From assembly GCF_963675165.1 (NCBI RefSeq), contig NC_087378.1, forward strand, positions 2,101,525-2,165,524: a stretch of 64,000 nucleotides of DNA, given 5' to 3'. The stretch comes from Halichondria panicea. Taxonomy: Eukaryota > Porifera > Demospongiae > Suberitida > Halichondriidae. Positions within the stretch are counted from its first letter, which is position 1. Each line of letters begins with the position of its first letter. The notes beneath the pieces are model-generated. The model worked only from the letters and a program-made list of their open reading frames with translations. It did no database searches and was not told the origin of the DNA. The position numbers and the translations under genes were made by a program. This document shows, one piece after another, positions 15,174 through 62,000 of the stretch.

Positions 15174-16419
15174 CTATTCTGGGCAAGGTTTGGTAGTGCT
15201 AAAACTGCACACTATACAAGGCACTCTGAGCTCCTCTTCTTTCAGGTCCTTACACTCAGAGCCGAGGAAACAATTCCTCTCTACGGCTGCCAGTTTGTGA
15301 TGTTGGGGTCTCTCAGGGGGTTGGGCAACATTGCTTGGATCCACACAAATGAATTGGCCAGTCGATTCCCAAACTTGTGACAGCACTCCTGTGTATTGTG
15401 GGCACCAGTCTTTAGGGCATTTGTTTGCATCTGGGATGGTAATAGACGTAGATGCGTCTTTAATGAAGCATAGAGAGCAGTCGAGTTTCCATGGCTGTCC
15501 ATTCTTGATATACGCTATTTCTGTCACTTTTTCTACTTCCCAACCAGTCAAATCAAACGGAGACTTTAAGGTAGAAGATCCACACACGTCATCTCCAAAG
15601 TCATCTCCACAAGGTTGAGGAATACAGAGTGGGTTTCCAGCTGAGTTAGTAGTGGCCACTCCAGAATAGAGATTAGAGCTGCTGGTACCCCCACAATACG
15701 TCCTGCCCCAGTGCACATATGTTGTACCAGACGAGCCTGAGAAACACAACTGAATAAAAAGAGTTGACAGTTGTATTTAATTGTCTTACCTGGATCTCCT
15801 GCAGTGAGGTCCATTCATAATTTATAAATAAAGTCATGTTCTGTACATGTATTTAAATATGCCCGCTCACCTTCCTCAACTGCATATCAACATTTTTGTA
15901 TATGAATGAGACATGCAAACACAGTATAGGAAGCTTACATAATCCACCAGGTTCTCCCTTTGGCCCCGGGGGTCCCACCATCCCATCCATGCCAGGGGAG
16001 CCTGTGGTGATTGATACACAGCGAAATAACATAACCTACAAAATCACAAGACAAATTAGGAATGTAAGCAGCGTTAGTTAAAATTGGCATGGGGCATAAG
16101 TACTTATCAGTTAATGTTCTTAAATTAAGTAAGTTAATTACCGGTGTCTCCATGTTCTCCCTTTATTCCTTCGGGTCCAATGATCCCGGGTGGTCCAGAA
16201 CTTCCAGGCAAACCAGATACACCAGTAACACCCTTGGTACCAGGGCTACCAGCTGTATACATGTAGCACCATATATATACCTAATACATTGTCATGTGAC
16301 TCACTGTGTCCTGTGTATCCTGGGAAACCCCTCGCTCCTTTCCCCCCTGTTATTTAATACATGTAGCATGAACATGAATTCAGAGCCATAAGCAAATTAT
16401 TAATGATGTGGCAGAATCG

Positions 16420-18597: not shown

Positions 18598-20042
18598 CTA
18601 GTAGATCTCCTCTAAGCAAGGTTTGGTAGTGCTGAAACTGCACACTATACAAGGCACTCTGAGCTCCTCTTCTTTCAGGTCCTTACACTCAGAGCCGAGG
18701 AAACAATTCCTCTCTACGGCTGCCAGTTTGTGATGTTGAGGTCTCTCAGGGGGTTTGGGGAAATTGCTTGGGTCTACACAAATAAATTGGCCAGTCGATT
18801 CCCAAACTTGTGACAGCACTCCTGTGTATTGTGGGCACCAGTCTTTAGGGCATTTGTTTGCGCCTGGGATGGTGATAGATGTAGATGCATCTTTAATGAA
18901 GCATAGAGAGCAGTCGAGTTTCCATGGCTGTCCATCCTTGATGTACGCTATTTCTGCCACTTTTTCCACTTCCCAATCAGTCAAATCAAACGGAGACTTT
19001 ATGGTAGAAGATCCACACAGGTCATCTCCACAAGGTTGAGGAACACAGAGTGGGTTTCCAGCTGAGTTAGTAGTGGCCACTCCAGAATAGAGACGAGAAT
19101 TGCTGGTACCGCTACAATGTCTCCTGCCCCAGTGCACATACGTCTCACCAGACGAGCCTGCAGAAACACAACTGAATGAATAAAATAAGCGACAGTTGTC
19201 TTGAATTGTCTTACCTGGCTCTCCTGTATTTCCTGCACCAGAGAGTTCATATATGTGTGAACGGTGTTATTAGAATGTTAAGTGTTACACCTCTACTTAC
19301 CTTTCTCAACTGCAAAAAAAAATTGTTATGATGAGGACATGCACTGTATACGAAGCTTACATTCTTCACACGGTTCTCCCTTTGGTCCAGGGGGTCCAGG
19401 AGGCCCAACCATTCCAGGGGAACCTAAAGTGATTGATACACAGCCAAGCAACATAAAATGCTTTGAAACAATGCAGCTTTTGTCAAGTTAGGAATGTAAG
19501 CAATGTTGATTTCACTCACCCATGACTCCATATTCTCCCTTTAATCCTGGTAGTCCAACCACCCCGGGTGGTCCAGAACTTCCGGGCCTACCAACTGCAC
19601 CAGTGTCACCATGCTCTCCCCTGGGACCAGGCCTACCAGCTGTATACATGTACATGTAGCAGCGTATATACAGACAGACTATAATAGTCATAATTTATGA
19701 CTCACTGTTTCCTGCGGATCCTGGGGGACCCCTCACTCCTTTTACTCCTGTAATTAGAATATGAATTCAGAGCCATAAACAATTAGTAGTGTGGTAGCTA
19801 TCAGCACACACCAGGTGGTCCTCGATGTCCAGTCCTTCCTTTCTGCCCCTTTATCCCTGGGGGTCCACGTCTGCCAACTAAGTGGAATCATTGATAAAGA
19901 GGATGTGAGTGGAAATTAAAATTAATTTACCTGGAGGAGGTCCTGGAGGACCAACGCGCCCAGGGGGCCCACTTTGAGCGAATGTGAATGAGAAGAAGAC
20001 AAAGCTCAATACAGAGCAGAGGAGCACCAGCTGAGGTTTCAT
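18598..20042 (-). CDS. Short-chain collagen C4-like protein, copy B
   Basis: Secreted 329-residue paralogue of copy A. Exons: 19931-20042, 19812-19877, 19706-19747, 19520-19639, 19361-19423, 19301-19309, 19215-19232, 18598-19157. It has the same signal peptide (MKPQLVLLCSVLSFVFFSF...), a longer Gly-X-Y region (exon 1 continues SGPPGRVGPPGPPPG) and the same Cys-rich C-terminal domain (PWKLDCSLC, CPKDWCPQYTG, FICVDP, VPCIVC). The 9-bp microexon TTGAGAAAG is conserved. The next tiny exon is 18 bp here against 9 bp in copy A. The C-terminal exon is strongly conserved between copies, while the collagen exons vary in length by whole triplets, consistent with selection on both. It shares copy A's promoter architecture. 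The gene lies just downstream of copine on the same strand. Confidence 0.85.
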
Positions 20043-36319: not shown

Positions 36320-39300
36320 ATGAGTCTCACACGCCATGAGGCTCTGGAAGTACTGGGCTTGGGGGATGGTAGGTTACAACATTTTTCATACATAAATACA
36401 GGGTGTGTCTCATGCTTTGTCTGTGTTTCTAGAATCTACTGATCAGGATATAAAAGACCGATTCAAGCAACTGGCTCTCAAATGGCATCCCGACAAGAAT
36501 CCCGAAGACCCAAAGGCAGCAGAGGAGGTACAAGAGTGTGTGCGTTTAGTTCTTTAATGTGTAGAAGCACTATAAACACTAGACGCCCTTGTAAGGGCAA
36601 AGGTAGATCTAATAAAATTCAATTGACTGTACAGTATATACATTTTGTGTTTGTAATATGCAGAAGTTCCAGAAGCTGTCTGCAGCGTACAGTCACTTGA
36701 AACACGAAGACAAAGAAGACGAGGATACCTACGATGCTGTAAGTGTGCTTTGTCGTTTGTCATATTCAATAATGTGCCACTCCTAACAGGTCTCTCTTGC
36801 AGAACTACTTATAGAGTTATTTGGAAGTAAGTTTAACATACATACCCCGTGTCAGGGTTTCATTTAGGATTAAAAGTTGGGGGGAAGGTTTATTACGCAC
36901 GCCGCAAAATGTTTGGCCACTCCCACATTTGGTTACCACACCCCCTATTACATGCTAGTGCATCACAGTAGATCTAGTTACATATTGCCCATCATACTAA
37001 TGTGACATACGAATGTGATGATGTCATTATTCTACAAACATTTTGAGGGGGAAGGTTTACCCCTGCCCCGCCCACTAGATGAAACCCAGCGTGTTAGCAG
37101 GGTTTCATATTCGTATGTGTGAGGAAGATAGAATATACATATAGGTAACCTTTTTGAATGACAGGTTAGTCAATTCAATAGCAAAGGTTGAAAATCGATA
37201 AAGGCGTGATAGTTTCCTGTTGTATTAATGTTAAAAGTGTATTATTTTGCCCCCTCCCCAGGGAGACGCTTCATGTTTGAACCTACACCGAGCCCCTCCT
37301 GCACATGTTTCTACTGTACCTTGAACTCTGAGTGGAAACAAGATAGACAAGAGATGATGGAGGAGGAGAAGAAGAAAGAATACATCAGAGACTATCATGA
37401 GGCCACTGCAAAGTGTGTGCTCTACTCTTTTGAGTTTGTCTGGTCCCCTTGTTTTGAGCTTAGAAATACCTCTTCTCTTCTCCCTCTCTCTTTCTTTGTT
37501 TCATAGAAGCCTAATTGATTATGTTTCCTATGCCTTTTGATTAATTTTAGTCTCTAGTTGTATAGAGGAGTATATCAGTGTGAAGTTGACATTACTTGTG
37601 TTCTGTGGTGCCTGTTTTTGTTCAATTGTGAGGCCTCCATTTGTCCTCCCACACTCCACCCATACACACTTTCTCCCCACACACACTCTCCCTCCACCCA
37701 TGCACACACTTCCCCCACCCACTCCACCCACACACTCACAGAGTTATTGGAGATCACTTAGTTAAACAGTTCGCAGATAAACTCTATAACAATTTCAACC
37801 AGCCAAGCCGTATGAATAGGAAAGGTAGTTCACAGAACTTGTTATTTACAGTAAGTGTATTTTTGATCCTGTGTTGACTTACAGGCAGTGATACTGCTCA
37901 AGTTAAAGTCAGCTCAGAAGTGAGTTAGTTGAGACCTACATGTAGGTTGCTTTGTGGCTGTAACTAATACCGTGTACTGTATAGGAAGCCAGTCGTAATG
38001 CAAAGCAGTTGTTAGAAGCCGAAGAAAAAGAAGAGAGAGATAAAGAGAAGAAAAGAGAAAGGAATAAGAAGGTTATACTCGGATTTGTGTTAATTTACGG
38101 CTAAGTTGTGTATTTATAATAATTTTTTTTTGTAACTTCTGATCTTTTTCTGTAGAAGAAAGAAGCTAAGAAGAAAAGGAAAGCAGTAAGTTAAGTAACT
38201 ACACATGATGATATATACATTGCCCTCCCCCCCTTAAACACAGAGCGCTGCCAAGGCTACAAAAAATGACTCTGCTGCTGTTCAAGACGAAGATAGCGGC
38301 CCAGAAGAGCCAGAAGGAGGTGCAGATGATGAGGTGTGGATGATGACTGTGCGATATGTTTATATCAGCATTCTCATCTGATCCACCCCTCTAGTTTGAT
38401 GTGACAAGTGCATTCATAGCTCGAGCCAGCAAGAAGCAATCATCCACCGTGAACACCAAGCCACGCCCACCAAGGGATGCCTCCCCATTTACTAGTAATG
38501 GAACTGTTAGTAGTACCAGTCTACAGTCTAACGAAGGGGCGGAGCAGTCTCTCCCCCTCATCCGCGATCCAGAGGTTAGGCCTGATTTCGGTATTCTACA
38601 TTGACGCGTACACTAAATAGTTTATAAATACATGATTGTTTACATTTGCATATGAGAGACAAAGTTAAATGTATCTCTTCGTACAAAGGGTTGGTGTTTT
38701 AATGTACACATCCTTCACCACCCCTCCCCCACACTACATACAGACTATGGAGAATGATTTGGCTCAGAGTCGAAAGCTAGCCTCCCTGGGTAATCGAGCT
38801 GCCAAAGACGGTCATTTTGGTGAGGCTGTGAGAAGGTACACAGAGGCCATTGCACTGTACCCCTACGATCACAGGTAAGGGGTGTTCAGTTATGGCTGAT
38901 CTTCAAAAGAAAGTTTACAACTTGTTTTACATGTGTATTATTTGTTGTCTTGCTTAGATATTTTGGAAACAGATCTTTCTGCTACGACTTTCTCCAGAAC
39001 TACACAAGGTGATTGTTGTGATCCCTTTTCATGGTATTAAATCACCCCCCCCCCCCCCCCCACCTCCTGCAGTGCCTTAGAAGATGCCAACAGAGCCATA
39101 GCGTTGGATGTTACATGGGCCAAGGGATATTATCGTAGAGGAAGAGCCTACGCGGGACTTAAGGTAGGGACCATTAATTTCCTTTGTTGCTTACTATCCT
39201 CACACTCTTGTAGAGGTTGGAGCTATCAGAGGGATCGTACATTCAGGCGCTCAAGTGTGACCCTCAGTACAAAGATGCCGAAGACGAGCTGTTCAAGATT

Positions 39301-40492
39301 CGAGTGGAGCAGCTAGTGGTGTGTGTGTGGAGTGTGGGTGTGCAGGCGGGTGTGTGATGTTTTCACAGTTAGCAGAATGTACTGTATAGTGTACGTACAA
39401 TAATACATTCTTCTGTTTCTCTCTCAGGGTATGGGTTTTCCCCCTGAACTCTGTGAGCCAGCTGTGAAAGAATTTGGATCAGTTCAATCTTCCATTGAGG
39501 CTATACTAGCTGGAAAAGGTACTAGAAAACTATAAAGTTTTCTTTATGAATTTGACCCACTCTTACGTGCAGTTGTGGCCACTTCCACCGTGGCTAACGG
39601 GTACCACCCTGACCCCCCACCGTCAGACCCCCCACAGTCGAAGCAGTCGCGAGAGAGGTATAAGCTTCCCCCCAGAATGCAAGTACGTGCCAGTCAGCCT
39701 CAACCTCCCCCCTCACCACCAAGAAAAGAGAAGTCAAGGTATACGCTTACACTGCTTGCACCTCATGGCACAAACATTGTCTAGCACTTCTTTAATTATT
39801 GGTTGAATTTTAATATTTTCTGAAACAGTGGTGGCCTTGAGAAACGATCTCTATGGGTTGGCAACATCACATCCGATGATATCACTGAGGAAATGATGTC
39901 TGATCTGTTCAAACCGTGAGTGTGAAATATGTATTTGATGTACTTAATTAAGGACCCCCCGTTCCCTTCAGATTCGGTGAGATAGTGTCTGTGAGGCTCC
40001 TCCCGGCACGCCGCTGTGCCTTCGTGAACTTCCTAAAAGTATCCTCTGCTGCAAAGGCTCTCGAGAAATTACAGGTGAGATTGCTTTGTCGAGAGAGTGG
40101 CTCTGCTCTGTTCAAACTATGTTTTTACTGTACAGGGCTACCATCTTGGAGGAAACTACCTTCTTCTGCGTTATCCTGAGATGAGCAACAAAAACCCTTA
40201 CATGCTAAAGTAAGTCATTATTTTATACGTTCAGTATCTCTAATTTCTAACTAAGGTGACCAATAGTATGCATTTTGCCCGCGCAATACCTATAATTTTA
40301 TTGTCAGATGTCATTGTACTCTCCACGACACTAACCCCCCCCCCCACACACCCTCATAGCCTCAAGAAGCCCGGGCCTGTGAACGGTACTGAGTGTTACT
40401 ATTGGAGAACCACCGGTTGTCAGTTTGGTATCCAGTGTCGCTACGAGCACCTACCAGAGAACAAGGGGGTTGACCTGCCTACCATGGTGTAA
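36320..40492 (+). CDS. TTC31-like multidomain protein: J domain, TPR, UBA, RRM and CCCH finger
   Basis: A 647-residue protein in 21 exons: 36320-36368, 36433-36527, 36664-36738, 36790-36826, 37262-37412, 37742-37824, 37885-37919, 37985-38071, 38156-38185, 38244-38333, 38395-38574, 38744-38874, 38958-39008, 39073-39163, 39214-39318, 39428-39518, 39573-39738, 39829-39915, 39972-40074, 40136-40209, 40360-40492. Domains in order: J domain (1-75; helix II then HPD in LALKWHPDKNP); a Cys-containing segment (CTCFYC, about 100); a Lys/Glu-rich coil (175-215); three TPR-like units (305-430; FGEAVRRYTEAIALYP, YFGNRSFCYDFL); a UBA-like helix set (GMGFPPELCEPAV, about 431-460); an RRM (about 520-605; LWVGNI, RRCAFVNF); and a CCCH finger (C-x7-C-x5-C-x3-H, ECYYWRTTGCQFGIQCRYEH). 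The coil plus TPR part resembles vertebrate TTC31. The whole suggests a chaperone adaptor acting on RNA or RNP; that role is inference. Confidence 0.85.
36853..37089. mobile_element. MITE-like element with CAGGGTTTCAT ends
   Basis: 237 bp in an intron of the TTC31-like gene. The left end reads CAGGGTTTCATTTAGGA; the right end on the opposite strand reads CTGGGTTTCATCTAGTGGG. It is non-coding. A further CAGGGTTTCATAT lies just beyond the right end. Its termini resemble those of the element at 4702-4845. Confidence 0.5.
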
Positions 40493-40949: not shown

Positions 40950-43477
40950 CTACACGAGTGTTCCTAATTCATTGCTGTCAAGTGATGCAGTATCTGTTGG
41001 CGAGGGACTGGAAACAGCGGTAGTTGTCATCACTACCTGTAAAGAAACATGAAATAATACTTGACCGTCTCTTGATATGCATCTTAGCTATCCTGTAACA
41101 GTACTCTTAGCATGGCACGCATGGCAAGCTATGTCTTACTGAGTACTTTCTTCTCTTGGCATAGCAAAATTAATACACTATTTTAACAGCACTTTAGTAA
41201 GGGGGGAGGGGAGTACCATATAGCGTGTATATTTCGAGTGTATATGTTCACTTATACCCACAAATTTAATATCGCATGTATGCATGCTGCGAAAGGCTAC
41301 TATTCGACGAAAATTAAATCTACGAAAGCCTTTCTAACGGTTATTCCACGAAAGTTTATACCCTCAAAGTATATCCGCTATACAGTATGTACTACGATCA
41401 GATTTACGAAGAATTTGTTGCTATACGTACATGAAGCCCTAACAAAGGCATTTATTTGATTAAACGCTCATCTCGTTTAAACTCCCATGGTAAAAGCTCT
41501 GTCTTTGTCAATAAAGGCCCATGTATGGGACGTGGCACTATGGGTGGAGCTGAAGTAGCACGTGGAACCAGTTGCAAGCATGGCAGCATACAATAATAAT
41601 TATATACTATTTATGATGGCAAAGAGAGAGATACCAACATAGAGGAAGAAACACCACTCTTATGACGATTTAACTGAGAGCTGTGGCAGCAGCCGCATAA
41701 TAACTGCTGCAACAATAAACGCCCGGTTTGAATAAGTGGCCATCTCGTTTAAACGCCCCCTCTACATATGTTGCTAGGAGATATAAACGCCTGGACGTTT
41801 AATCAAAAATATGGTACATACATGTACATGCATTGTTAGCCAATATAACCCACACCCACCGTTTGTTGAGAGGAGTCCAGTGGTTTGACGGAGCTAATGA
41901 GAGCTCGAAAGGCCTCCACCCAGTCCTCCAGCTGCCCGGGGTTGTCAAACTGGACCAGGAATGTGCGTGTTGGGGTCACCACCTCCATCATCTCCTTACC
42001 GGTACTGGGGGAGGGGTAGAACAATTACAGTCTCAGCAGTCTGGTGGGAATCTATGGACTTGATTTCCTTTCTAAGCTTACAGATGGATATAAGGAAAAG
42101 CTTTGCACAAACAGCTGACAGATAATGGAGAAGCAAATGGTACACAGATAAAGGGAATATAATAATGCACAGCACAAAACACCATACACATTCACACAGT
42201 CCCACTACACACACACACCCACACACCCACACAACTCACTCAACAATTGCAGATCTAACGGAGGTGACCTCACCCACGGACAGTGCTCTGATAGGCTCTA
42301 CCTCATCTATGCTCTTGTAATAGGCCAATGCTAACTCTGTCAGCACAAAAAACCGCTTCTTCCAATTCTTCCTCTGTGGGGAGGGAGGTCATGAATGGCA
42401 GACTTATACACAGTGTATGTACTGAAGCACTGATTATCAGTCATGTTTACATACATTGTCCATAACTGTGCACTACCTAGACTAATCCTATGAACAGGCA
42501 CACAGAACTACTTGTAGTTAGTCGTACCACATGTCCTAGTTTGATCCCGTGTCCCGCTTTGATTATTCGGGGAAATCCCCTCGTCTGTTTTTCACCAATG
42601 GAGGCTCCAGGCACAGACTCCATCCCCTTCAGCTCACCACCGGTGGCAGCACCGTCCTTCGCCCCAGCCTCACTCTGCACATGACATTAGTACAGAGCAT
42701 TAATGTGCAATGAAGCATGCAACACCTACAACGATAAAACGGTTGCGATGAGGGTAAGGTAGTAGCACTTACCATGGGTATCTTGTGGACCACACCCCCT
42801 ACGACTTTGGTCCGATAACTGACATCCTCTCCCTGTTTCTGCTGGATGAGGGAGGCCACCTGCCTGGCCGAACCTTGTCTCATCTGGAGGGTACAATGGT
42901 GGTATAGCATTATAATATTGAAAGTAAAGATATAATAATTATGATGTTCATACCGATGCCTTCCTGATAGACTCTGCCCACTGATCTCGCTCCTCCAGTG
43001 AGTCAACAGAGAGAAAGTGGCTGCCACTCGTCGTCACAATCTCTGCAGCATGCCAGCAATATAGTACTATTCAAGATATTCATTGAAGTGTTATCTTTCC
43101 ATATCCTTCACACTCTCCCTTTCTTCTCCACTACCCCCACTCTTTCTTAGCCCTAGATCCTCAATGCTACTAAAGTAAACACACCACAGGCCGCTAGGAA
43201 TAGCCCGAACGAGTATAAAGCTGTCTAGAGGTTGCTTACCTAGTGAATTCAGTGCCTTGGGTCTGGTCAGACTGGCACGCACTTTGGTTATATATTGACA
43301 GTTGATCTCAGCATCACACTCGACCAGGACAGAGTTTTGCTCCGCCTCCTCAGGGTACACCCGCAGTTTGTGTATGCTAAAGTCAAGAACCAGGTAGCAA
43401 CGTACATAGTAGCCAGTGCTGGGGGTCTCCCGCGCCACATACCCCACCACTCGGTCGTCTCCGTCCAATGAGGGCAT
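40950..43477 (-). CDS. Tandem PH domain adaptor (TAPP/PLEKHA1-2-like)
   Basis: A 316-residue protein in seven coding exons: 43240-43477, 42954-43042, 42773-42883, 42528-42674, 42240-42373, 41860-42004, 40950-41036. The layout is that of TAPP1/2. The N-terminal PH domain (about 5-115) begins MPSLDGDDRVVGYV; the linker has the family motif VSYRTKVVGGVV. The second PH domain (about 175-275) has KAGHGIKLGHVRKNWKKRFF and VVTPTRTFLVQFDNPGQLED. In TAPPs the C-terminal PH domain binds PI(3,4)P2 through a Lys-x-Gly-x(n)-Lys-x-Arg-x-Phe loop. KAGHGIKLGHVRKNWKKRFF supplies comparable residues; binding is inferred. The protein ends GTLV, which fits a class I PDZ-ligand (T-L-V), as TAPP1 ends SDV. AG|GGATG at the start indicates a 5' UTR intron; a donor-ended upstream exon is visible near 45327. 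Confidence 0.88.
41214..41387. mobile_element. MITE with TACCATATAGCG ends in TAPP intron
   Basis: A 174-bp element. The left end reads TACCATATAGCGTGTATATT; the right end on the opposite strand reads TACTGTATAGCGGATATACT. ATTCCACGAAA and ATTCGACGAAA motifs lie inside. It is a diverged third member of the TACCGTATAG family and is non-coding. Confidence 0.65.
41455..41807. mobile_element. Candidate MITE with TTTGATTAAACG ends
   Basis: About 350 bp bounded by TTTGATTAAACGCTCATCTCG and, on the opposite strand, TTTGATTAAACGTCCAGGCG. CATCTCGTTTAAAC occurs once near each side in the same orientation. No reading frame is seen. It adjoins another MITE, so the intron between the last two TAPP coding exons is a transposon cluster. 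Confidence 0.5.
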
Positions 43478-43486
43478 CCCTATGAG

Positions 43487-45480
43487 GGGTGGGGTTAGGG
43501 GGGTGGGTGATGGTATGTGTGCAATGAGTATATGAACTAGAACCTTTGTATACAGTCGTTTTAAGACTACTAGATCATGTTACCATAATTTGTTATGCCT
43601 ATGCATGGGGCCAAAATTATTTATACATGTACGTACATGTAGTACACGTATGATCATACTGCCACTGTTACAGGTCTTTGATGAGCATGCCTCACTAAGT
43701 AAACAACAAGGGACCCAAACAAGGCCATCTAACTGCGTTGCATTGCCATGGTAAAATGGCAATGGAACACACTAGGTTGTAATTACCATCTTAAATGATG
43801 TTCACGTATAAGCATAGCCACGGTAACAGAACAGGCAATTATGCAGTAGAGATACAAGCAGTTTAGACAATGTCCATTCAGGAAATGCACATTTTCTTAA
43901 AGGATTACCAAACAAAGAGACTGATTCAGCATGGCAAAGGTCTAGGCACGCACACACACACACACGCGCACACATGTGTGTGCAGGCTGTTATCACTGTG
44001 TTATGATGACAATACAGCTCTCTTTTCTTAAGATGGTACACTGTGTAAAAACTGAAGTTTCAAAGTTTACATTAACAATGACCAGATGTCAATGCAATAA
44101 TGACTCCATATGGAAATAGGGACAGTAAACTTAACCTTGATATACTTATACTTGATAAGTGGAGGTGAAGCTGACTGAATGTGATAGCTACTTGATAACA
44201 GCCCTCCCCCACAACAGTATTGGATCATCGGCACAAAATACCAAATGTTGTTTCTAGTACATCTTTCAGTTTAGTATGTTACTAGAGCATGAATAGTGTG
44301 GTGGTCAGATGGTGGTCAGAGTGTGTCTCACTTAACAGCCAGCAGAGACTATTGATGGTTTGGCAAATCAAGAGCTATAAGCACACTAGGTACTTGAGCT
44401 CATAATTATGAAACTGCAACAATTCTTTAATAGGAGAATTTACACATGTGACAAACTAAGCAATGCATCAACGAACTATTGAATCACTAGATCTCAGGAA
44501 CCAATAATTATACACAGTATGAATCACTGCATTAGAGGTAAGCAAACCACTAACAATACAAAACTCAGTAGGAAGTGAATTCCAAATTAGGGCCAAACAA
44601 GAAAAGGAGCACTTGGGGGTAGGCAACACTTGGGGGTAGGCAATACGTACCCACAGTCTGTGGGGAACTAAACTAACCTCTGCTACAATTAATTTAAGCA
44701 CACACGTACGTGTGAATAAAGTGTCTTGTTTGGAGAACCTACTGTGCTAGAAGATTCACACAGGGAAGTGCTAATCACACAAACAGACAACATACACACA
44801 CACAACAACACTACCAAATTTATCCAAAGATGTAGCCAAATAATTAACACTGGAATCTCTCTAATGAAGTTCTGGTAATAGTATGGTCTAATGTAACCTC
44901 CCAGAGGGAATTCACTCCACTGACCACTAAGATATAGCATTACATTAGGTGTTTACAATGCTATAGACTACACAAAGCTCACTTGGGAGCATACAAACAG
45001 AACTGAGCAAAACTCAAACAAGGCAGGAAGCGCGTACGATGCATATGGCACTGACACACAAACAATCTGACTGTTGGACATGACATGACAGTACAGTACA
45101 GAGGAGCTAGGCTATACAGTACAGCTAAGTGCTGGTTATTATTCGACACAGTTGATTACTTTACAATAAACAATTTCCTACTACACTGAGATACACCAGG
45201 TACTGTGTGTGCTGCATAGGGTAGCTACAAGAGAAGGCTGCAACATAGCACCTTGATAAAGAAAATGTGTGTACTTGTACAAGACAAGACCAGGCTTGCA
45301 AACAGCCCTATGGATATTATACTCACCTTATAGAGATCAGGTAGTGTAGACTCTAAAATAACTGCAAACAACTCGTATAGTTCAATGGTAGAATCCTTGT
45401 GTTCTTTTGTGGTGCAGCTTTTGAACCTCAGGGAAACCTTTGCTGAGCTTGCAGCAATTAGGGCCTATTTGAAAGACCAC
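43487..45480 (-). other. Long 5' UTR intron and leader exon of the TAPP-like gene
   Basis: The TAPP start codon is preceded by a CTCATAG acceptor. The first plausible matching donor upstream is CTCTATAAG|GTGAGT at 45321-45329. About 150 bp beyond that is the probable non-coding first exon, facing the EXOC8 stop. The 1.8-kb interval between holds no convincing gene. It has only small repeats, for example the direct repeat CACTTGGGGGTAGGCAA twice near 44610-44645. Without transcript data the leader exon is a suggestion. Confidence 0.35.
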
Positions 45481-48640: not shown

Positions 48641-49640
48641 TCAGTTCAGTGGCACTCGGCCCTCTTGGCATGCCAGGTCCATTGTGTCGATGGACGCTAT
48701 TGGATGGTGAATGCTTGATCTTGCACCTCTTAGGCACATTGTAGCTGAGCGTAGTAGAGAATAACTCAGTTTACATCTGATCCAATGGATGATCTTACTG
48801 TACGTCTTGTTCTGTTTCTGCGCTGTCATTGAGGCTATTCTTTTGTAGACTACATTTGCAATTGGGCCCATTCCTCCTGATGTTGAGAAGACTAGGGGGG
48901 AGAAGGATCCATGCTCCACTTCTCTTATGCGTTCATCGTATGCTCTTTTCTTCTCCAGTTCGTTCTTCTTGTAGCATTGACTGAGGGAGGTATGTTGATG
49001 ACTCAGCGCGAAAGGGCTGAACACCCTTATGTCAAAAAATGCGCGGTTCCGATCTCTTCCCCAGAAATTATCTGCTGCAATATCTAGGCGAGCTCCTTCC
49101 TCTCTGTTTGCCGTTCTAAGTCTGAGTTGTTCTCCTGAGAGAGGTTGGAGTGGTGGTTCAGTTGCAACGTTGTGGCAAACCTCAGTGAGGAAACCCGCTG
49201 TGATGTCCCTCAGTTCGTTGTGGCGGATTGAAGGGAATCCTCCACGACTGCATATTAGTGAGTGCTCGACTGTGAATTGGTGACCACAGATGCAGTGTGA
49301 TGGTAGATTTGAAGGTCACCAACCATAACGTAGACAGAGGGCATCTCGAAATGCACCTTTGTGGAGGGCAAACCCATGTTCATCAATGGGTAGGGTGGCG
49401 AGCCAACTTGATGCTCCCTTCTCCGTTGAAACTTGCATTGCCCTCTTCATGTTGTTTGATAGCTTGCTTTCCAGCTCTGCCGCTGCTTGTGAGTCTGATT
49501 GTTTGCGTATTTTTACTGCTTTTTTCTTGACATTGAGTTGTTCTGCTTTGGCCTCCTGATGGTATGTGTGAGATTGGACCAGGATTAGAGAGACGAGAGG
49601 AGCTGTGATGCTTTGTGACGACTTGTGGTGATAGGAGTTA
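48641..49640 (-). mobile_element. Retroelement C-terminal coding fragment (probable non-LTR, REL-endonuclease-like)
   Basis: On the minus strand, a reading frame recognisable from many invertebrate retroelement-derived proteins is present: KGASSWLATLPIDEHGFALH, then AFRDALCLRYGW, a zinc-knuckle-like CICGHQFTVEHSLIC, GGFPSIRHNELRDITAG, ARLDIAADNFW, FFDIRVFSPFA, IREVEHGSFSPLVFSTSGG and SYSLLRSATMCLRGARSS. The knuckle followed by an Asp/Asp-containing segment resembles the C-terminal endonuclease part of R2/NeSL-type LINEs, but I cannot confirm the class. No reverse transcriptase core is present upstream, so this is a 5'-truncated remnant. Confidence 0.6.
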
Positions 49641-59073: not shown

Positions 59074-62000
59074 TCACTTGAAAGTAATTAAGTACTCAGG
59101 ATACGACTGAACATCTGGTACAACAACAAAAATAGTTGGGGCAGAGGTGCTATTGACCAAAGAGTCAAAGAGCACATTTTGATCTTTCGTTGGGTCTTTT
59201 GGTGGAGGCACCACCATGCTACTCTTTCCCACGGTGTACTCACCAGTAAGGACTTTGGCCAAGTACATGTACTTGTGTCCATTTTGGTCAGGCTTGGAGT
59301 ACGTTGGGCTAGCTGAGTATGAGGCATCTCGGGCAAAGTACGTTCCATTTCCATATGCTATAGCTACAAGAGGAAAAAATTAATGATAGACCCAAAATAC
59401 ATTGATTTACCATACCATGTCTTCCAGCATAGCTTCGATTGAATCCGTTGGCATTAATTTTAACTGCACTATCAGCATCTGTACCATGGAATAGTTGACG
59501 TTCATTAGGGTGGTTGGGTGGATTGGCTTTATCCATTGCTTCTTTGGCTTGACGGTACAAGCAATACAACCTTGGGTTTTGTACACGTTGTATTGTGATG
59601 ATTTCGGATTTGGATACAGTCTGGTTAAAGACGACCAGCACTTCTTTGTATTCAATGCTATCAGGCTTGAGGTCAACACAATGAACGGACTTATGAATAG
59701 GCATTTCATCCCATGTGTCTGGTCTTGTGCCTACAGTAATACAACATTTCAAACACAAAACTCACATGCACTAAAACATTACTAACGTACCAACTTCTTT
59801 CGTGGTGAACCTTCGCACACGATTGTGTTGCTTGGTTTTGTGGTCTTCCTCTTCATGCTTCAGGAAGTCTATTGTAAAATTAATTGGTTCTTTTTGATAA
59901 TGAAATATATGCATATCCTTATGAGTTTGTTTCTTGAATGCTAGATATGCTTGTTCAATTTCATAGCTGAATTCCTTGTCATAATTGACAAAATTCATGG
60001 TTCCCTGTTTCTTGTATTGCCATTGAACAGTGATGTAAAGGCTTTCAACTTCAAATTGATGCTGAAGTTGTTGCTGAAATTGTTTGCCACGTTCATCTGA
60101 TTTACGAGACATGACTTTATAGATAATATCGTTAACTTTGCCGCGAATTTTGGTGATATCGTGTACATTTCCAGTTAGCCGAATACGGCCAATATCACGT
60201 TCAATCCTACACTCGACACCCGCATTTAGGCACTCTTTACCAATTTCTTTACATTCAACATTGTTGAGAGCTCTAATACTCTCATTATTAATCTCTTCTT
60301 TGTCGAAATTTTCTCGCATCAGTTTCCTTAACCTTGCAACCGCACCACTAACTCTACTCTCATCAAATCCACAAATAATAATATTGAGCCCTTCCTGTGG
60401 TGTCTCATGATCCGCTCCTGAATGCGATAGATCATCTTCATCAATACTTGATGATATTTCCCTAGACGACGACCAATAATTCAATGCAGATGGGCTCCTT
60501 CTACTCGTTAGCTCATCATCACTGTTGCTTTCAAATTCAAGTGGTGACATATCATCATCGGACAATGCAGAAGCTTCACCATGTAGCTCTGAAGCGGACG
60601 GTGATAGTACAAGTACAGTATCTGGCTGAATTGATGTTAAGAATGTATCGTAAATTCCTTCGTTGAAAATAACAATTCGAACTTGCTTCAAGTATTTAGG
60701 GTTAGAAAGACCGAACTGATTGATCCCTTCATACGTTCCTTTGGCTGCATCCGTTGTAGGGTAGTTTTGAGCTCCAGTTCCTATGACCGGCAATGCAATC
60801 GTCTTATATTGAAGTTGTTCTGCTTTATCAAGGCATGACTTAATTGTTTTGCTGTACAGTCCAGGATCATTGCTGCTGAAGTAAATATGTAAAATGGATT
60901 TACATTTGAGTGGATTCAATGCTTTTGTTGCGATAACTTTTCCTTCAGTGAGCTGGCCTTCTTTTTTTACAGCATCTGTACATAAATCTTGGAGTTTGGG
61001 TCCAGCAATTTTGAGAAGAATCTTTGACACTTCACCACTATTACCTAAATTGATTCCTGAGCTAGTTGTGTTGACAATGGCATCACTTGAATCTTTCGTG
61101 ATATCTCCTTTAACAACTGACACTTGAATTCCTTGAACGTGAAAATCTGAAGTTACTGGTGAGTTAGCAGCAGCTACAGCCAATTTTGGAGAGGAGGTGT
61201 CGAACAATTTGCTCTTTTTCTTTTTAGTGCTCTGCAGCTGCACATTCTCTAATTCAGATTTGAATATCTTATGTTGACTTGCATCAAAAATGATAAGGTG
61301 AATGGTAAACTGTGCATTCTTGGTCTTCGCTAAGTACAAGCAAGACTCTGTGATCATAATACCAGCAACAAGCTGTATGGGGTAACCAAGACCACCAGGT
61401 CCTATTGCTGGAAATGCAATGGAATTCACTTGATGCTTTTCACACTGTTGAAAGCATTTTCGGATTAAGTCTCGAAGAATCTGCGGAATAAAGAGTTCAT
61501 AAATTTGAAAATTAGTCCATCATAACAAACCTTTCCGTCTTTATCAGCAGAGCAGTTAGGTGCAACAGCATGAAAAACATGCTGGCAGTCCAGGTTTCCA
61601 GGGCCAGTTACAATCACATCTCCGGTGTTTGCGCGTCCTTTTTCATTGCATTCCTTTTGGAGATCTGGGCCAGCAAGTTTAGACATATGTTGTGCAATCA
61701 CGCCTCGAGAGAGATCCAATTTGGAGTTGGCAGTACACACATACACATCAATAACAACCTATAGGGAAACCAATAAGGTATAATGACACTTCCTGGGGAT
61801 CAATTAAAGCTAACCTTAGTTGAAAAAAGATCTCCATGGTGTAGCTGTGGCACACTTGAAGTCATCGATTTTTTTTTTGCTGCACCACCACTAGTACTAG
61901 ATCTAGCAGCTAGGCCAAGAGAACTAGAGCGAATGCTTTGTACAGGGATTAAAAACATGCTAGATTCGATATCCAATGTGATAACACTTCCCGGAAAACA

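Follow-up and report, generated by a model that had tools for sequence, protein, structure and literature searches.

A candidate TTC31 homologue of the sponge Halichondria panicea, predicted to combine a J domain, TPRs and an RRM

A single frame of 647 aa (1944 nt), free of internal stops, could be spliced in silico from 21 exons at positions 36320-40492 of the plus strand. These positions refer to the analysed window, a 64,000-nucleotide stretch of contig NC_087378.1 (positions 2,101,525 to 2,165,524) of Halichondria panicea. The genome holding the window comprises 131 Mb in 39 contigs. GT-AG borders were found in 20 of the 20 introns. An earlier note on this DNA had described a plus-strand gene of 21 exons with an unbroken frame at this location, all of which was present in the sequence. 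The exons are listed below with the tools that support them.

36320..36368, plus strand, exon 1: ATG and start of the J domain, aa 1-16 (Pfam, gene finder)
36433..36527, plus strand, exon 2: J domain, including HPD at positions 35-37 of the protein (Pfam, gene finder)
36664..36738, plus strand, exon 3: end of the J domain, Pfam match to aa 66 (Pfam, gene finder)
36790..36826, plus strand, exon 4: linker; donor GAA/GTAAGT, in the top 0.5% of window GT sites (gene finder)
37262..37412, plus strand, exon 5: linker with SCTCFYC at aa 98-104, no credible Pfam family (gene finder)
37742..37824, plus strand, exon 6: linker (gene finder)
37885..37919, plus strand, exon 7: linker, then beginning of the TTC31 homology (gene finder, alignment)
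37985..38071, plus strand, exon 8: basic coil, TTC31-like (gene finder, alignment)
38156..38185, plus strand, exon 9: lysine-rich KKKKEAKKKRK, aa 203-213, starting at the end of exon 8 (gene finder)
38244..38333, plus strand, exon 10: acidic linker (gene finder)
38395..38574, plus strand, exon 11: together with exon 10, the DDEFDVTSAFIAR patch common to TTC31, followed by a disordered linker (gene finder, alignment)
38744..38874, plus strand, exon 12: TPR1, with one clamp position lost (A317) and one kept (N321) (Pfam)
38958..39008, plus strand, exon 13: TPR2 with clamp residue N352 (Pfam)
39073..39163, plus strand, exon 14: TPR2/TPR3, carrying K382 and R386 of the clamp (Pfam)
39214..39318, plus strand, exon 15: end of TPR3 and helix 1 of the UBA-like segment (Pfam, gene finder)
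39428..39518, plus strand, exon 16: UBA-like segment GMGFPPELCEPAVKEFG, under the Pfam cut-off (Pfam, gene finder)
39573..39738, plus strand, exon 17: proline-rich linker, 54 bp after exon 16 (gene finder)
39829..39915, plus strand, exon 18: first half of the RRM (Pfam, gene finder)
39972..40074, plus strand, exon 19: RRM (Pfam, gene finder)
40136..40209, plus strand, exon 20: end of the RRM; donor AAA/GTAAGT, in the top 0.6% of GT sites (Pfam, gene finder)
40360..40492, plus strand, exon 21: CX7CX5CX3H finger at aa 616-634, followed by the stop codon (Pfam; not picked by the gene finder)

To score the coding potential, codon use was learned from 12 further ORFs in the window. In the chosen frame the whole coding sequence reached +96 bits, whereas the other two frames gave -27 and -6 bits and the introns about -155. 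The chosen frame scored above both other forward frames in 18 of the 21 exons, the exceptions being exons 1, 13 and 20. A home-made gene finder, combining codon use from 12 other ORFs with a generic splice model, returned exons 1-19 identically. The finder ended its chain at 40213, right after exon 20, where an unspliced exon 20 would reach a stop, and exon 21 with the CCCH finger was left unspliced.

The gene is alone on the plus strand. Its downstream flank is short, as the earlier note had reported: a reading frame on the minus strand ends some 460 bp away. This frame stops near 40950 and is convergent with the gene. The frames of the convergent neighbour (40950-43500, minus strand) presumably belong to a PH-domain-like protein of the TAPP type; no Pfam match was obtained for its ORF at 43091-43579. 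On the other side, the minus-strand frames at 35.4-36.1 kb, which we take to resemble a DUSP11-type phosphatase, gave no Pfam match either. Elsewhere in the window, two nearly identical minus-strand frames (15174-15776 and 18598-19266) lie about 3.4 kb apart, as if derived from a tandem duplication. The minus-strand frame at 48641-49315 is presumably the C-terminal part of a retroelement polyprotein, and a 582-aa frame at 59771-61519 (minus strand) is assumed to encode a macro-domain/PARP-type protein.

Five modules had been named for the predicted protein, of which the J domain, the TPRs and the RRM exceeded the Pfam cut-offs. DnaJ was matched at aa 10-66 (E 1.5e-16, 60.6 bits, cut-off 27.8) with HPD at aa 35-37, as it is expected for a class C J-domain protein. 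TPR_2 was matched in three stretches (E 5.9e-9, 35.8 bits, cut-off 27), TPR_1 being also above its cut-off, and RRM_1 at aa 524-588 (E 2.9e-15, 56.3 bits, cut-off 20.7). The other two modules, UBA and CCCH, scored below the cut-offs; in the HMM check that had been proposed for J, UBA, RRM and zf-CCCH, only the first and third passed. The fragment matches around GMGF at 431 reached E 0.0057 and 17.0 bits for UBA_7 (cut-off 27) and E 0.0059 and 16.9 bits for UBA (cut-off 22.4). In a PDB search, the UBA-like segment matched the UBA regions of TNRC6C, USP5 and USP13 chains at just E 0.68-1.3, and these were outranked by an unrelated myomesin match (E 0.25). The fragment match to zf-CCCH had E 0.033 and 14.6 bits (cut-off 20.5). 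The spacing C-x7-8-C-x5-C-x3-H was found at aa 616-634, and this motif is rare by chance: shuffling the 44-aa peptide of exon 21 produced it in 13 of 100,000 cases, and the window translated in six frames contains it three times, two of these inside a CVCV repeat. Judged from the sequence, both the UBA-like segment and the C-terminal CCCH finger are likely to be genuine.

Searches of NCBIfam returned just DnaJ, TPR and RRM generalities together with weak noise. No known Pfam family was matched by exons 4-7 and 17. A BIR match in the linker between J domain and coil (exon 5 region, E 0.018-0.028, below the cut-off) was discarded as chance. The SCTCFYC of exon 5 (37262-37412, plus strand) might form a small, as yet undescribed metal site that separates J domain and coil.

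The TPRs form a unit of HOP/PP5 type. The carboxylate clamp that binds the tail of Hsp70/Hsp90 has the consensus K5 N9 - N6 - K2 R6 (PMC2939883), and the corresponding positions here are A317, N321, N352, K382 and R386. Four of the five residues are therefore kept, and the clamp is incomplete in that the first lysine is replaced by alanine.

Human TTC31 (Q49AM3) was represented by a provisional sequence with 519 residues and REERP at 281. The published description gives 519 residues, a coil at 147-197, REERP at 281-285 and TPRs at 305-406 (PMC7279152), and the basic coil and TPR letters of the provisional sequence sit where that paper places them. BLASTP against the provisional sequence gave 36% identity over 165 aa (E 5e-23). 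The matching stretches, again relative to the provisional TTC31 sequence, were aa 172-258 and 294-425, covering the basic coil, the acidic patch and the TPRs. With the same reference, the alignment score of the coil and acidic patch ahead of the TPRs was reached by none of 5000 shuffles; the acidic patch by itself was weaker, 28 of 5000 shuffles reaching its score. No likeness to the provisional sequence was detected at the termini, where the score was reached by 559 of 5000 shuffles for the N end and by 2300 of 5000 for the C end. Since the coil, patch and TPRs align and the ends do not, the TTC31 homology corresponds to exons 7-15, the J domain and the UBA-RRM-CCCH part being extra. A coil followed by three TPRs, both homologous to the provisional TTC31 sequence, was thus found, and the likeness that had been claimed for the coil and TPR part was confirmed against that sequence, reaching the basic coil and the acidic patch.

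In a whole-genome protein search that scores the best candidates only, 37 matches were obtained. Sixteen of these fell in the gene, and each of the 21 located elsewhere was single-domain (12 J, 8 TPR and 1 RRM). No second copy of the chain was present among the best-scored candidates; since only these are scored, the search argues against another copy without excluding it. The protein scan of the viral contig collection revealed no relative. The motif DHRxFGNRSFC had no match in the genome contig and viral contig collections; intron 12 cuts this motif in the window itself, which also gave no match, so that a relative with the same intron would be missed. The exon-13 motif was without match in the genome contig collection. 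Its one match among viral contigs (L017) was attributed to chance, as that contig is phage-like, the best piece is 9 aa long and no TTC31 relative is present.

Some of the J matches elsewhere in the genome (C16:2747658, C7:4320145, C4:4467999 and C8:4135491) lie inside uninterrupted frames of 4294-4346 aa. The C8 frame, of which 3332 aa were read, is sacsin-like (SACS 490.6 bits), its DnaJ match being below the cut-off at 20.7 bits. The region at 0.58-1.71 Mb of contig C3 holds 20 of the 54 DnaJ matches of the genome. Most of these are weak and cover half a domain, and identical scores recur among them, as if a gene had multiplied locally. Two similar short frames are present in one stretch of this region.

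The preferred reading, to which a probability of about 0.6 is given, is that one gene specifies a class C J-domain protein of 647 aa, which would be the TTC31 homologue of this animal and, to judge from its domain types, may act as a local Hsp70 loader for RNA-protein particles. Through the RRM and the finger, the protein would be anchored to RNA or to a ribonucleoprotein, possibly inside the nucleus should the lysine-rich stretch act as an NLS. The EEVD tail of Hsp70 or Hsp90 would be held in the TPR groove, and the J domain would then trigger ATP hydrolysis by Hsp70 on a client from this particle. The UBA-like segment may favour ubiquitin-marked clients or provide a link to their disposal. 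In DnaJC7, the contact between J domain and Hsc70 requires the TPR-EEVD contact (PMC13254874). DNAJC17, which carries a J domain, a coil and an RRM, acts in splicing; its RRM inhibits the J domain and is not required for rescue, and no RNA bound to the protein was recovered (PMC13388955). The presence of an RRM next to a J domain therefore does not imply RNA binding.

The exons could also belong to two adjacent plus-strand genes with overlapping ends in a compact genome, either a J gene (exons 1-4) followed by TTC31-UBA-RRM-CCCH or a J-TTC31 gene followed by RRM-CCCH, an arrangement that is considered unlikely. The longest gaps, of 435 and 329 bp, directly follow the J exons; read-through of exon 4 leads to a stop at 36865-36867 with ATTAAA at 36869, and exon 5 contains an in-frame ATG. 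As exons 4-7 and 17 are without known family, no homology bridges those joins, which was counted for two genes. Intron 17 also speaks against unity, with the weakest of the 20 donors (top 23.1% among GT sites) and likewise a weak acceptor (top 35.5%). On the other hand, the donor of exon 4 is near-perfect and is joined in frame to an exon 5 acceptor in the top 5.4%. Exons 16 and 17 lie 54 bp apart, and the RRM needs an upstream exon because exon 18 lacks an in-frame ATG ahead of it. No other plus-strand neighbour was seen nearby, a point on the side of one gene. When the cost of a gene end was set cheap, the gene finder broke the locus up at intron 11 and within the J domain, but this preferred split cuts both the J domain and the TTC31 homology and is not biological. 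The finder is no witness for unity either. In a control over the whole window it merged neighbouring genes into a plus-strand chain of 95 exons (8878-51983) and minus-strand chains of 105 and 28, so that the rebuilt exons 1-19 are no evidence for a single gene, and the costs of forced breaks (-12.6 at intron 4, -12.3 at intron 16 and -13.5 at intron 17) carry little weight. The poly(A) scan covered AATAAA and ATTAAA; since neither is present within 800 bp of the gene's own 3' end, their absence between exons says nothing. From the open frames and the consensus splice sites, a merger of two genes appears unlikely.

Two further explanations concern the nature of the protein. One of them, a TPR protein of the HOP/PP5 type with acquired domains that is no homologue of TTC31, is highly improbable. 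It would agree with the top matches among solved structures, which were HOP (7kw7), SPAG1, RPAP3 and PP5, but the TPRs align better with the provisional TTC31 sequence (score 203) than with PP5 (179) or HOP TPR1 (159). In addition, the coil, the acidic patch and their order are common to the protein and the provisional TTC31 sequence, and both have alanine for the first clamp lysine. The other keeps a single gene whose borrowed domains would serve as protein-binding surfaces, the RRM not binding RNA and the TPRs not binding EEVD; this reading, in which the protein would be a centrosome or spindle scaffold resembling human TTC31, is rather doubtful. Human TTC31 has been studied in centrosome duplication and chromosome congression, where supernumerary centrosomes and defective congression follow its knockdown (PMC3817404). 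This phenotype favours a scaffold, as do the dispensable DNAJC17 RRM with no recovered RNA (PMC13388955) and the loss of one clamp residue. The intact HPD, the RRM well above its cut-off, the finger-like motif after the RRM and the four clamp residues kept stand against it. In the accessible part of PMC3817404, the human studies did not concern RNA or chaperone work, and the centrosome phenotype neither proves nor excludes RNA-anchored Hsp70 loading.

It may tentatively be proposed that TTC31 started as an RNA-anchored Hsp70 co-chaperone with a J domain, a TPR clamp and ubiquitin-reading and RNA-binding parts. Human TTC31 would then be a stripped remnant with a further decayed clamp, and its centrosome phenotype a leftover of RNP chaperoning; this history is possible, although we hold it with less than even confidence. 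The human clamp, with T and R for N and K in the provisional sequence, is weakly consistent with a loss in the human line. Alternatively, as the earlier note had also considered, the chain may have arisen by a fusion confined to one lineage. The zebrafish gene si:dkey-33c12.4 may encode a TTC31-like RRM protein.

TTC31 is nearly undescribed. If the preferred reading is true, a J domain and RNA-binding parts in a homologue would suggest a concrete, testable role for the family, namely bringing Hsp70 to RNA-protein particles. The architecture would also extend the set of J proteins beyond the published list of 57 catfish members (PMC4277396). That list, named by likeness to known DNAJ genes, includes J-RRM (dnajc17), TPR-J (dnajc3 twice, dnajc7) and J-UIM (dnajb2) combinations, and none of the 57 proteins unites J, TPR and RRM (PMC4277396). 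No description of a J-TPR-UBA-RRM-CCCH chain was found in a literature search in which most matches were judged from listings.

Among known systems, HOP/STIP1, PP5 and RPAP3 have a sequence-similar three-repeat TPR unit, but they are without J or RRM, and HOP keeps five of five clamp residues compared with four of five here. A J domain also occurs together with Hsp-type TPRs on the same polypeptide in DNAJC7 and DNAJC3 (PMC13254874, PMC4277396). In the catfish list they have seven to nine TPRs in the arrangement 7*(TPR)-DnaJ, without RRM or finger (PMC4277396), so that their TPR array precedes a C-terminal J domain, whereas the J domain is N-terminal here. DNAJC17/Cwc23 shares the N-terminal J domain, the coil and the later RRM (PMC13388955). 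TPR, UBA and finger are absent from the accessible part of its description (PMC13388955) and from the catfish entry DnaJ-RRM_1 (PMC4277396), in contrast to the protein described here, in which TPRs are present. Human TTC31, in its provisional sequence, is without J domain, UBA, RRM and CCCH finger, and its other clamp positions are T, N, R and R, compared with N, N, K and R here. The provisional human sequence nevertheless has the basic coil, the acidic patch with S-x-F and the three TPRs in the same order, with alanine at TPR1 clamp position 5 as in the sponge protein.
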